From the NCBI GenBank assembly GCA_003282145.1, contig QBZZ01000014.1, forward strand, positions 1-49,238: DNA of 49,238 nucleotides, read 5' to 3'. Both the position numbers and the translations under genes were made by a program. Shown in pieces: positions 3,045 to 28,985 of the stretch. Below the pieces are notes generated by a model. It ran no database searches. It saw only the letters and a program-made list of their open reading frames with translations, and was not told the origin of the DNA. Positions within the stretch are counted from its first letter, which is position 1. Every line of letters starts with the position of its first letter. This DNA is from SAR116 cluster bacterium AG-337-N21 (GTDB taxonomy: Bacteria; Pseudomonadota; Alphaproteobacteria; Puniceispirillales; Marisalimonadaceae).

Positions 3045-3380
3045 TTGGATACAAATGCAAATTTGATGACTTATAATACTTTTACTTTTAAAACAGAAGC
3101 GCAAATGCTTCTTTTTAGAAGAATTTGGGAAGATAATGGTACATCATTGTTTGATAAACTTAAAAAAAAAGGATGTACAAGATTTTGTCTTAATCAAATA
3201 TGGAATATGAAGGGAACATTTAAAATATCTATTTTGTTTGAGTATGAAAGCCCAAATTCATTTAAACAATGTCAAAATGAATTAGAAAATTTTACCAAAA
3301 ACATTATGAAAGAACTTCAAGCCGCAGACCCTGTTATAGAGGCAAGCAGAAATATTGTTCTTCAGGACCTGAGAGTTTAA
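3045..3380 (+). CDS. Small protein, probable dimeric alpha/beta-barrel fold (tandem copy 1)
   Basis: A 111-residue protein. I chose the TTG start at 3045 because GGGAG lies at 3034-3038, six bases upstream; the next in-frame ATG (3066) has no ribosome binding site. The order of predicted elements (strand, helix, two strands with KGTFKISILFEYES, then a long amphipathic helix) fits the ferredoxin-like half of a dimeric alpha/beta barrel, as in antibiotic-biosynthesis-monooxygenase or EthD-type proteins. It is the first of four consecutive same-strand genes of about 95-113 codons that share this plan, and it is the most divergent of them. No catalytic residue can be assigned. The gene is likely real, given its ribosome binding site and the cluster; the fold is inferred from pattern only and the function is unknown. 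Confidence 0.6.
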   Translation: MDTNANLMTYNTFTFKTEAQMLLFRRIWEDNGTSLFDKLKKKGCTRFCLNQIWNMKGTFKISILFEYESPNSFKQCQNELENFTKNIMKELQAADPVIEASRNIVLQDLRV

Positions 3381-3559
3381 CTCCTGACTCATACAGCCTT
3401 GCTCAGCGACGACAACCAAATCGCAAGCAGCTTATTACTTTGATTGCATTAGCTTTTCTGAAAGACTTTATATTAAACATTAAAAGGTTTAACACTTTAC
3501 GAAATATGTTCGATTTGATTAAACTATATCAGTATCAAAATACTTACGGAACTTAAAAT

Positions 3560-3883
3560 ATGTATGGAATAACAGTTACTGTAAAATTACAAAATAAATT
3601 AGCCAAAGATTCTATAGTTATGTCCCTTAGAAATATGAGTGAAGATTTGTTTAATGAAAGTGGAGGCTTGTTAATTAGGTGCTTCACCGAAGTATCAGAT
3701 ACTCAAATAGATATGTTTCATTTATGGAAAGATAAATCATCTTTATTAAAAACAAGAACAAAGTTTTCCAATAAGTTTTGGAATGATATAAAAGAAATGG
3801 GAGGAATAGTAAGTAAATCAGAGGGAGAAACGCTAGTTGAAATGTCAAAACTAATAAAAAATGCTAATGTACAGGTTAAGTGA
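3560..3883 (+). CDS. Small protein, probable dimeric alpha/beta-barrel fold (tandem copy 2)
   Basis: A 107-residue protein that starts at an ATG with only a weak GGAA upstream. The pattern is a beta strand (YGITVTVKL), a helix (KDSIVMSLRNMSEDLF), two strands (LLIRCFTEVSDTQIDMFHLW), and a helix ending in DIKEMGG. The C-terminal part matches the broken copy at 4222-4560: VSD..(I/F)..F..(L/V)WK, then about 20 residues, EMG, then GET..MS. So these two are clear paralogues. The stop codon is joined to the next gene as TGATG (3881-3885), which indicates translational coupling and one transcript. No known function; ABM/EthD-like proteins often handle small hydrophobic or reactive substrates, but nothing here proves that. 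Confidence 0.65.
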   Translation: MYGITVTVKLQNKLAKDSIVMSLRNMSEDLFNESGGLLIRCFTEVSDTQIDMFHLWKDKSSLLKTRTKFSNKFWNDIKEMGGIVSKSEGETLVEMSKLIKNANVQVK

Positions 3884-4164
3884 TGTACGTTAGAATTGTA
3901 GAAATAACAGCTCCAACGAAACTTCAATTAAATATTTTTTTAGATTATTTAAGAATTACACATTTTCCAAAAAATTTAGAACAGGGTCAAACGTCTGCAA
4001 AAGTATTCAGAGTAAATGAAGTGTCAGCTTTCGTTATTGCTGGATTTAAAGATAAGAAATCTGCAGATAAAATTAAAATTATGAATAATCTAGAAATTAA
4101 TGAATTGAAAACTAACTTAAAAATAAGGTCATTTGAGGGACCAATTGAGTACTGTTTAGATTGA
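3883..4164 (+). CDS. Small protein, probable dimeric alpha/beta-barrel fold (tandem copy 3)
   Basis: A 93-residue protein read from the ATG at 3883, which overlaps the stop of the previous gene by one base (TGATG); a GTG one codon earlier is the alternative. The pattern resembles copy 2: MYVRIVEI strand, helix through LRITHF, strand AKVFRVNEVSAFVIAGF, then KDKKSADK where copy 2 has KDKSSLLK, a helix, and a final strand. A one-transcript arrangement with copy 2 is clear from the coupling. No family is recognised by sequence; the fold is an inference. Confidence 0.6.
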   Translation: MYVRIVEITAPTKLQLNIFLDYLRITHFPKNLEQGQTSAKVFRVNEVSAFVIAGFKDKKSADKIKIMNNLEINELKTNLKIRSFEGPIEYCLD

Positions 4165-4221
4165 TAATCTAATTTCATTAAAATTATATTTATAAATTAA
4201 AAATGAGAAAAAAGGAAAAAA

Positions 4222-4560
4222 ATGTATACGAGAACCCATGTTTTTAAATTTGTAAATAAGGTTTCAAGAGACTCTTTTAAATTTTTTTGCATAAATTATA
4301 CAGATTCTTTATTTAAAGATGGTCTAAATTTTTCATTATTTATTGATATTTCAGATATCTCATTTCAATTTCTAACTGTTTGGAAGTAAAAAAAAGAATG
4401 GGAGAAATCTTTTAAAAAAGCAGGTGAATATTCAGACTTAAAAAAACAGATTACAGAAATGGGCGCCACAATGACAATAGTTGGGGGTGAAACTCAAGGA
4501 AGAATGTCAACTCAGAGTGATTTTAATCTTTTTGAAAATATTAAACAGTCTGGTTTGTAA
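4222..4560 (+). pseudogene. Fourth tandem copy, interrupted by an in-frame TAA
   Basis: A frame of 113 codons begins with ATG at 4222, preceded by AAGGA at 4212-4216, and ends with TAA at 4558-4560. It carries one internal stop, TAA at 4387-4389, just after VWK. Both halves match copy 2: before the stop, ISDISFQFLTVWK aligns with VSDTQIDMFHLWK; after it, EMGATMTIVGGETQGRMS aligns with EMGGIVSKSEGETLVEMS. The frame does not change across the stop, so this is a substitution (for example AAA or GAA to TAA), not an indel. It is a recent pseudogene, a sequencing error, or a gene that needs stop readthrough. The intact ribosome binding site and the open downstream half argue that any decay is young. 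Confidence 0.65.
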
Positions 4561-4636: not shown

Positions 4637-5386
4637 ATGTTTTTAGAATATTTTGAAACTATTACTTTTGCTATAATTTTGAGCTCAGTATTTTTGGGAG
4701 GAATAGTTAAAGGATCGGTTGGTATTGGAATGTCTATGTTTTCAGTTCCACTGATAGCTTTTATTTTGCCTCCTACTAAAGCAATGATGCTTTTATGCTT
4801 TCCAGTTATTGTAACAAACTTTATCCAAATGGATATCAAAAGAGGAGTAAGCAATTATAGGTTTTTTCCAATGTTCATGACACTTTTTTTAGGTATAATT
4901 ATTGGTGGAAAACTAATATTAAGTTTAAATTTGAAAACAATTTCAATATTAATTGCATTAACTATAATTATTTTTACGCTCTTCAACTTTTTAGGATTAA
5001 ATCTAAAATGGCTTAAACCAAAATATGAAAAAATAATATCCATTTTTATTGGTTTTTTTTCAGGTATTCTCGGGGGCTTGTCTACGTTCTATGCACCGCC
5101 TATAATTACCTTTTTAGTTTCTTTAAATTTAGCAAAAGAAAATTTTATAAGAACTACAGCAACAATGTATTTCTTAGCTTCTATACCATTATATTCATCC
5201 CTTATTTTTCATGGTTTAGGTAATTTTTATGATTTGTTAGTAAGTCTTATTATTACAGCACCAGCTTTGTTAGGACAATATTTTGGAACTAAAATTAGGT
5301 TAAGATTATCTAACGCAATATTTAGAAAAGCAATTTTAGTAATTTTAATTGTTATTGGTTTTTCATTGTTGATTAAAAATTTATAA
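4637..5386 (+). CDS. TSUP (TauE/SafE) family membrane permease
   Basis: A 249-residue, strongly hydrophobic protein with about eight membrane segments arranged as two similar halves. The first half opens with GGIVKGSVGIGMSMFSVPLIAFILPPTKAMMLLCFPVIVTN and the second with GILGGLSTFYAPPIITFLVSLN, the pattern of the TSUP/DUF81 family (G.(V/I)G..G...(P/G) near the start of each half). Members export or import small organic anions such as sulfoacetate, sulfite or other sulfur or carboxylate compounds across the inner membrane. It is in the same direction as the four small alpha/beta genes before it and the hydratase after it, so it may move the substrate or product of that module. Exact substrate unknown. 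Family is firm. Confidence 0.85.
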   Translation: MFLEYFETITFAIILSSVFLGGIVKGSVGIGMSMFSVPLIAFILPPTKAMMLLCFPVIVTNFIQMDIKRGVSNYRFFPMFMTLFLGIIIGGKLILSLNLKTISILIALTIIIFTLFNFLGLNLKWLKPKYEKIISIFIGFFSGILGGLSTFYAPPIITFLVSLNLAKENFIRTTATMYFLASIPLYSSLIFHGLGNFYDLLVSLIITAPALLGQYFGTKIRLRLSNAIFRKAILVILIVIGFSLLIKNL

Positions 5387-5650: not shown

Positions 5651-6436
5651 ATGAATGAATTAACTCAAAATAAATTAGAGAGCTATGCCCAGAAAATTTT
5701 AAACGACTATGATGCGAAAAATCATAGTGCTTTTTTTAAAAATAAAAATATCAAGATAAGTATCTCAGATGCTTATAAAATCCAATCAATACTAACTGAT
5801 CTCAGAATAAAGAGAGGTGAAAAGGTAATTGGTTATAAAATTGGAAGTATTTCAAAACAAACTCAAAAAAAATATGGCTTTTCCTATCCAGCTTGGGGAC
5901 GTTTATGGGAAAGTGAACTACATTTAAATGGGATAAAGTTAAGTAAAAAAAATTATTCAAATCCAGCAATGGAAGCTGAATTTGGAATAAGATTCAATCG
6001 TAATTTAGATCCTCAAAAGGTTAATTTTGAATATATATTAGCTTCAATTGATACAATTCACCCAATAATAGAAATACATAATCTAATATTTTACGGTAAT
6101 GAACCCTACGGTGCAGAACATATTTCAAACAATGCAATAAATGCCGGTGTGGTTTGTGGTACTGGAACAGACAAACCCAAATTTGGAGAAATTACTGACC
6201 TAAAATTAATTTATGATAAAATAATAATAGATAAATGGACAAATAAAATATGGCCTATTGACATGTTATCAGCAATTGAGTGGTTTGTTGTGGAACAAGC
6301 AAAGATGAATAATCAAATAAAAAAAGGAAACCTTATTTTGACAGGTGCATATGGTCCTCCAATTCCAATAGTTGATAAAAAGCTGATAGAGGTTAACTCT
6401 AGTTTGTTTGGTAAAGTTTCAGCAATTTTTAAATAA
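5651..6436 (+). CDS. MhpD-like 2-keto-4-pentenoate hydratase / 4-oxalocrotonate decarboxylase family enzyme
   Basis: A 261-residue protein of the fumarylacetoacetase superfamily, MhpD branch. Visible: GYKIG at 61-65 (with the conserved Lys), a metal-binding E-x-E at E108 and E110 (MEAEFG), a third acidic ligand E141 in IIEIHN, and the C-terminal GNLILTGAYGPPIP segment. Members hydrate 2-hydroxypentadienoate-type dienols or decarboxylate 4-oxalocrotonate in meta-cleavage pathways, using a divalent metal. The segment that commonly reads PDFG in the classical enzymes reads PAWG (80-83), so the usual acidic residue there is absent and the substrate may differ. A tautomerase gene follows at 6631, and that pairing is typical of meta-cleavage routes, but no ring-cleavage dioxygenase is in the window. 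Family firm; reaction not settled. Confidence 0.8.
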   Translation: MNELTQNKLESYAQKILNDYDAKNHSAFFKNKNIKISISDAYKIQSILTDLRIKRGEKVIGYKIGSISKQTQKKYGFSYPAWGRLWESELHLNGIKLSKKNYSNPAMEAEFGIRFNRNLDPQKVNFEYILASIDTIHPIIEIHNLIFYGNEPYGAEHISNNAINAGVVCGTGTDKPKFGEITDLKLIYDKIIIDKWTNKIWPIDMLSAIEWFVVEQAKMNNQIKKGNLILTGAYGPPIPIVDKKLIEVNSSLFGKVSAIFK

Positions 6437-6630: not shown

Positions 6631-6977
6631 ATGCCATTAATAAGAATAGATGTTCCTGAAGGAGTATCTGGAGATGTTAAAAAACAAATACATAGCAAAG
6701 TAAGAGAAGTTGTATTAAAGAAGTTCAATATGATTATGTTTTTATTAGAGAAGCATTTGGATATATAGGTGACAATCTTCCAGTCATAGATGTTGATTTA
6801 AGACCCGGGAGAGATGCGAGAAGAAAAAAAGCTCTTGTTGACGGTATATCTAAAGTTTTCATAGAGACACCAAATATTTCTAAAGAAGATGAATATTGTT
6901 TATTGAGGGAAACACCGGCACATAATCATTATACCGGTGGTGAACCTTTGCCAGAATGGTTAATATCTGATGAATAA
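6631..6977 (+). pseudogene. Tautomerase-superfamily gene broken by a one-base frameshift
   Basis: The gene starts with ATG at 6631 after AGGAG at 6621-6625. The first 31 or so codons read MPLIRIDVPEGVSGDVKKQI and onward, with the N-terminal Pro-1 that is the catalytic base of 4-oxalocrotonate tautomerases. The frame then runs into a TAG near 6766. From about 6726 a different frame continues with YDYVFIREAFGYIGDN, then PVIDVDLRPGRDARRKKAL and ends with TAA at 6975-6977. One base is missing around 6720-6726 (a TT that would need to be TTT). Repaired, it would be about 115 residues with two beta-alpha-beta units, the size of the cis-CaaD/MSAD-like tautomerases. It follows the MhpD-like gene and probably acts, or acted, in the same pathway. 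A sequencing error is possible. Confidence 0.8.
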
Positions 6978-7035
6978 AAATAATGAAAATAATAATCTAT
7001 TATTAAAATTGATTAATACATGATAAATAATAATT

Positions 7036-28909: not shown

Positions 28910-28985
28910 GGGGCTATAGCTCAGTTGGGAGAGCGCTACACTGGCAGTGTAGAGGTCAGCGGTTCGAACCCGCTTAGCTCCACCA
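28910..28985 (+). tRNA. tRNA-Ala (anticodon GGC)
   Basis: A 76-base cloverleaf with CCA encoded at 28983-28985. The acceptor GGGGCTA pairs with TAGCTCC (one G-U). The D arm is GCTC..GAGC, the anticodon stem CTACA/TGTAG with loop CTGGCAG (anticodon GGC), and the T arm AGCGG-TTCGAAC-CCGCT. It reads GCC and GCU alanine codons. It follows the TIGR02300 gene by 13 bases and may be on the same transcript. Confidence 0.97.

Follow-up and report, generated by a model that had tools for sequence, protein, structure and literature searches.

Four Small Genes in Tandem

What might four very small, consecutive genes on one strand do in a SAR116 bacterium? This question is raised by the contig QBZZ01000014.1 of SAR116 cluster bacterium AG-337-N21 (49,238 nucleotides, hereafter the window), which belongs to a draft genome of 2.04 Mb in 55 contigs that is 81.9% complete. 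An initial annotation had described the genes as a tandem family of alpha/beta-barrel-like proteins with one shared layout, one of them carrying a stop, and as a plausible undescribed module. We find that the tandem itself is real, with one correction: its genes belong to three sequence families, here called A, B, and C. The block probably encodes a group of small dimeric alpha+beta-barrel (ferredoxin-like) proteins whose separate homodimers bind or transform hydrophobic or aromatic acids. The four genes are as follows.

3045..3380, + strand: copy 1, family A, DUF6974 (PF22388) ferredoxin-like; 111 amino acids (aa), TTG start
3560..3883, + strand: copy 2, family B, without a Pfam family; 107 aa
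3883..4164, + strand: copy 3, family C, 2OD4-like; 93 aa from ATG, the start overlapping the stop of copy 2 (TGATG)
4222..4560, + strand: copy 4, second family B gene (B'); 112 codons before the final stop, with an in-frame TAA at codon 56 (4387-4389)

The spacing along copies 1 to 4 is 179, -1, and 57 bases, and 76 bases separate copy 4 from the permease gene that follows. The interrupted copy and the TGATG overlap are thus both present as initially described, and a GTG at 3880 is a possible alternative start of copy 3. GGGAG stands 6 bases upstream of the TTG of copy 1, but the exact start of this gene is unsettled, because TTG is used in six of nine orthologues, whereas two have an ATG one codon earlier and one starts four codons earlier. 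Mean dN/dS values among orthologues, calculated by the Nei-Gojobori method with some pairs near saturation, are 0.08 for copy 1 (n=9), 0.17 for copy 2 (n=6), 0.13 for copy 3 (n=7), and 0.16 for copy 4 (n=9), indicating that the tandem genes are coding and under purifying selection. Scans for promoters (20 versus a mean of 21.9) and terminators (1 versus 0.9) were at chance level.

Three Sequence Families and One Fold

Copies 2 and 4 are paralogues, as had been proposed: copy 4 matches copy 2 with an E value of 3.9e-5 in the window's own genome and of 1.1e-42 with the family B profile. Families C and B align by hhalign (92.7%, E 4.2e-7), and copy 3 is, judging from this profile comparison, a remote relative of copies 2 and 4. 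Copy 1 shows no detectable homology to the others by hhalign (2.0% and 0.1%). Because it has no profile link to B or C, a single homologous family of four genes is ruled out, and the layout common to all four is one of fold and not of sequence family. Copy 1 matches DUF6974 with 38.3 bits against a cut-off of 26 (E 1.6e-9), which places it in the same Pfam family as the solved proteins 2OP5 and 2OD6, but it forms its own clade in the family A tree (support 100/100) and is 21% identical to 2od6, its top match. In a literature search, we found no paper naming DUF6974 and no published function for it.

Family B has no Pfam match over the cut-off, no NCBIfam match, and no PHROG match under E 0.01. 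VasI matched 4 of 24 family B members (best E 0.0012) and was set aside because copy 2 scores 15.5 bits, below the cut-off of 26.5. The family C profile matches 2od4, titled "dimeric ferredoxin-like protein from uncultured marine organism," over positions 1-93 of 93 at E 4.1e-18; the family B profile reaches it weakly (E 0.0039), and copy 2 alone finds nothing credible among PDB sequences, 2od4 included. The Pfam profile scan, in which most matches above about 0.1 are lost to the HMMER filters, gave no ABM (PF03992) row for copies 1-3 or for either half of copy 4.

The modelled structures of copies 1 and 2 are both βαββαβ, and their best solved fold matches are 2OD6/2OP5 and 2OD4, respectively. 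The common ferredoxin-like fold that the initial annotation had inferred is borne out for all four products, for copies 1 and 2 by models and fold matches, for copy 3 by the sequence match of its family to 2od4, and for copy 4 because it is homologous to copy 2. Copy 1 has the fold of the solved DUF6974 members and copies 2 and 4 that of 2OD4, and this is also the monomer fold of the ABM-type dimeric alpha+beta barrel. Further fold neighbors are cofactor-independent oxygenases, cyclases, and ABM-type proteins (SnoaB, ActVA-Orf6, FasU, LsrG, and OAC). With ABM-type barrels such as SnoaB, ActVA-Orf6, LsrG, and IsdI/MhuD, the copies have the monomer fold in common but no sequence match. A probable SCOP label is "marine metagenome family DABB."

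The PDB titles of 2OP5 and 2OD4 both name an uncultured marine organism as the source. Over its 108 aligned residues, 2OP5 shares 99% identity with a protein of genome G044 (locus L193) and 97% with one of G038 (L194), both from another family of the window's order; 2OD4, over 93 aligned residues, has its nearest kin, at 94% identity, in G057 (L199), also from another family of the order. For 2OD6, no close source was found among the 61 genomes searched, the best match being 40%. In a part of PMC2557142, 2OD5, 2OD4, 2OD6, 2OP5, and 2PGC appear as crystal structures from novel ocean-metagenome families, and an extract of PMC2954221 tabulates 10-oxohexadecanoic acid with 2od6. No literature on these genes beyond these two papers was among the matches listed, which does not prove its absence.

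Conserved Residues and Proposed Function

The two main families differ in their conserved residues. R46, W53, N54, Y67, and R102 are invariant in family A (31/31 alignment rows), and E66 is present in 30 of the 31 rows; the alignment that defines this set includes copy 1, which carries all of it. In the copy 1 model, R46 lies in strand 2, W53 and N54 follow just after it, E66 and Y67 are at the end of strand 3, and R102 is just after strand 4. The polar set and its placement therefore suit a carboxylate-binding, possibly catalytic site. In family B (24 rows), D47 (21/24) is the sole polar residue conserved at 85% or more, and there is no invariant ionisable residue, which makes a binding or carrier role, or enzymes with different substrates, likelier for this family.

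We propose that each product would act alone as a homodimer, with a pocket in each protomer between the beta-sheet and the helices, and that an organic acid, hydrophobic or aromatic, would be bound in this pocket without any cofactor. Family A proteins would probably also transform their acid, and the residues R46/W53/N54/Y67/R102, with E66, could hold the carboxylate and perform acid-base chemistry. Translation of copies 2 and 3 is probably coupled, which would be a dosage arrangement instead of an obligate complex.

The Tandem in Related Genomes

The A-B-C-B' run is found in five of seven loci (the window, G021, G015, G031, and AG-337-O15), and the stop/start overlap of B and C is kept in all seven (TGATG in six and TAATG in one), showing that the tandem is conserved elsewhere. 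G015 and G031 have an extra 123-aa gene, g7, between C and B', where the window has none, and another A gene after the block; for g7 of G015, neither Pfam nor PDB sequences gave a credible match. The gene order around the block varies between genomes.

Among the five tandem blocks, the only one without a broken copy is that of G015, the genome of AG-321-A13. The lesions elsewhere fall in B (G031 and AG-337-O15), C (G021), and B' (the window and AG-337-O15), while copy 1 is open in all five. The copies thus break independently, and one fully open block in five argues against an obligate four-part complex. The initial annotation had also taken the TGATG coupling to indicate a single product set; the overlap itself stands, but the single product set is weak, because B is broken with C open in two genomes and C is broken with B open in another. 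The stop in copy 4 is specific to the window among nine orthologues (the other eight compared are open, and B' of AG-337-O15 was separately seen to be broken), and in this strain copy 4 has probably become a pseudogene recently. An isolated stop or frameshift might also be an amplification or assembly error, because several source records look single-cell, as judged from record names, with some titles saying MAG (metagenome-assembled genome). The combination of decay and constraint fits functions that are useful but individually dispensable.

Clustering of small barrel genes of several families recurs in the SAR116 order. At locus L203, from another family of the order, a C gene is followed by a gene for a DUF1330 protein and then by an A gene. 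DUF1330 also stands beside C in L204. L206 and L207, again from other families of the order, have an unnamed 98-aa gene that shares four bases with A, and in L208 a gene of this 98-aa kind precedes two A genes. The small-barrel families beside A and C in L203 (DUF1330, GYD, DUF3764, and ABM-like, the last with a row below the cut-off) are separate sequence families, and they are not in the window block. These gene maps come from a plain open reading frame (ORF) picker and not from a gene caller. Neither Pfam nor PDB sequences gave a credible match for another small family that neighbors A and C, and a two-domain small neighbor has no credible PDB relative. Five small genes lie in a run at L203:14227-15911, namely GYD, ABM-like, DUF3764, cupin, and SCO4226-like, with the ABM, cupin, and SCO4226 rows below the curated cut-off.

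Distribution and Clustering

The families are restricted to one lineage, where they occur in multiple copies. Family A is found in 43 and family B in 39 of 61 relatives (both at E 0.001), and family C in 40 (E 0.01); within the genus, A and B are each present in 35 of 37 genomes. A class-wide sample of 385 genomes gave A in two and B in one, the window's own genome included in both counts, so that A occurs in one and B in none of the 384 other sampled genomes. The window's own genome has six A, seven B (one broken), and two C genes, counts that leave out three rows, one for A (E 0.09) and two for C (E 0.058 and 0.13). The family A tree (41 proteins) shows deep paralogue clades common to several species and mostly short tips, so the copies look old and kept; 16 of its 38 inner branches are well supported, and the tree carries a warning of long branches meeting. 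A DUF6974 gene of G012 (L103:9808-10149, identical to L127:6028-6369) is mosaic-like, with about 150 bases at the beginning matching the paralogue L026 at 93-100% and the rest matching L019 at 90-100%, which may reflect true recombination or an amplification chimera.

Of the 15 family genes in the window's own genome, 10 lie within 5 kb of another, compared to a random mean of 1.0; none of 20000 draws reached this value. Collapsing the window block leaves 8 of 13 genes with such a neighbor, a count reached by a single draw in 20000. The clustering is therefore above chance, and tandem duplication alone could produce it.

These results narrow the suggested novelty. The idea of an undescribed family does not hold for copy 1, which belongs to DUF6974, and families A and C both have solved ocean-metagenome members; it fits better for family B, an unlabelled sister family. 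What is new is thus reduced to new members of known structural families, to family B, and to the recurrent multi-family clustering in the SAR116 order. The orphan structures 2OP5 and 2OD4 are now tied to genomes of the window's order, which is not the case for 2OD6. Several old copies are kept under purifying selection in a clade of which PMC8547437 describes one part, possibly including this genus, as streamlined; the same paper found that its two subclades do not differ in paralogue number. The function has become testable now that there are open orthologues to work with, a class of candidate ligands, and a set of invariant residues.

Neighboring Genes

Downstream of the tandem, on the same strand, are three further genes.

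4637..5386, + strand: TauE/SafE-type permease (Pfam PF01925, E 1.2e-24), found in five of seven loci
5651..6436, + strand: relative of the 2-oxo-4-enoate hydratase family, below the HpaH and DmpE equivalog cut-offs and without a Pfam match
6631..6983, + strand: tautomerase gene, frameshifted in the window, located by tblastn with the G021 tautomerase

The meta-cleavage-type enzymes that the initial annotation had placed beside the tandem are present in part. The product of 5651..6436 is related to hydratases without being an equivalog, scoring 79.5 bits for HpaH (cut-off 351.5) and 67.1 for DmpE (cut-off 408.8). The two halves of the tautomerase gene (6631-6720 and 6717-6983) match the G021 protein in different frames, with the break at about 6720. 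The G021 protein itself matches Pfam Tautomerase at E 9.5e-18, and the gene is open in G021 and G031; AG-337-O15 has lesions in both the tautomerase and hydratase genes. No ring-cleavage dioxygenase was noticed beside the block, although no search was aimed at it.

A survey of 82 loci gave 573 neighbors; 20 from or near this set were picked by hand for a Pfam scan, plus 9 more. Matches over the cut-off among the 20 include cupins (three), glyoxalase, tautomerase, zinc dehydrogenase, DsrE, MOSC, and ydhR-like proteins; GFA-like and NTF2-like matches are below the cut-off, and about half have no match over it. These neighbors are partly small-molecule enzymes, and no single pathway emerges. In 31 of the 82 loci, a zinc dehydrogenase gene is followed immediately on its 3' side by a B orthologue, and a 4-hydroxybenzoate 3-monooxygenase is the third gene on in 33 (for example, L020), each identity being taken from one representative. 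Shared descent accounts for much of this order because the loci are mostly from near relatives. Integrase-like genes were recognized by eye at L024:9009-11338, near a B gene, and at L208:9353-10585, near an A pair.

Alternative Explanations

If A, B, and C were subunits of mixed barrels, as hetero-dimers or hetero-oligomers, the coupling of copies 2 and 3 would set a 1:1 ratio. The overlap kept in all seven loci would suit this, as would the different small family whose gene shares 4 bases with A in G044 and G038 (plain ORF picker), the B or C gene within 5 kb of three of six A genes (a count reached by 33 of 20000 random draws), and the dimeric titles of the solved relatives. However, the solved relatives are all dimer entries built from a single sequence, no A, B, or C partner was seen in the stretch examined for many of the A and B genes, and B, C, and copy 4 are each broken in genomes that keep other members open. 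We consider mixed barrels unlikely and prefer separate homodimers. We are similarly doubtful about a broader picture in which SAR116 bacteria keep an expanding, recombining repertoire of unrelated small alpha+beta-barrel families in variable islands, partly as coupled pairs, with the tandem as one cassette and with mixed barrels or swappable pockets that would sample dissolved lipid-like or aromatic acids.

The copies could also be accessory enzymes of one meta-cleavage-type acid pathway with the adjoining permease, hydratase, and tautomerase. These three genes, some of them broken, lie by the block in five of seven loci, and the monooxygenase stands near another B gene; yet the hydratase falls far below the equivalog cut-offs, none of the three was found near the B-C pair in the stretches examined from G014 and G012, and the 573 neighbors include only 9 genes of hydratase type and 7 for permeases. 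Such a dedicated pathway thus seems improbable. That the genes are selfish or phage-derived cargo of a variable island, with no metabolic role, is less probable still and in our judgment very unlikely. Frequent breakage, the differing gene order around the block, and the integrase-like genes in L024 and L208 are consistent with cargo, but purifying selection on the tandem genes and the conserved gene order around a B orthologue, kept in about 33 loci, argue against it. Viral contigs held no relative of copy 1 or family B and phage records none of copies 1 and 2 (family C was not searched in either), and the PHROG rows are weak; phage genes were therefore rejected as the best reading.

Just upstream of the tandem, at 183-2390, the window encodes a TPR protein with an O-GlcNAc-transferase-type domain (Glyco_transf_41, E 6e-92), which has no match in the 18 kb of G021 compared. 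The sole tRNA found in the window is at 28910.
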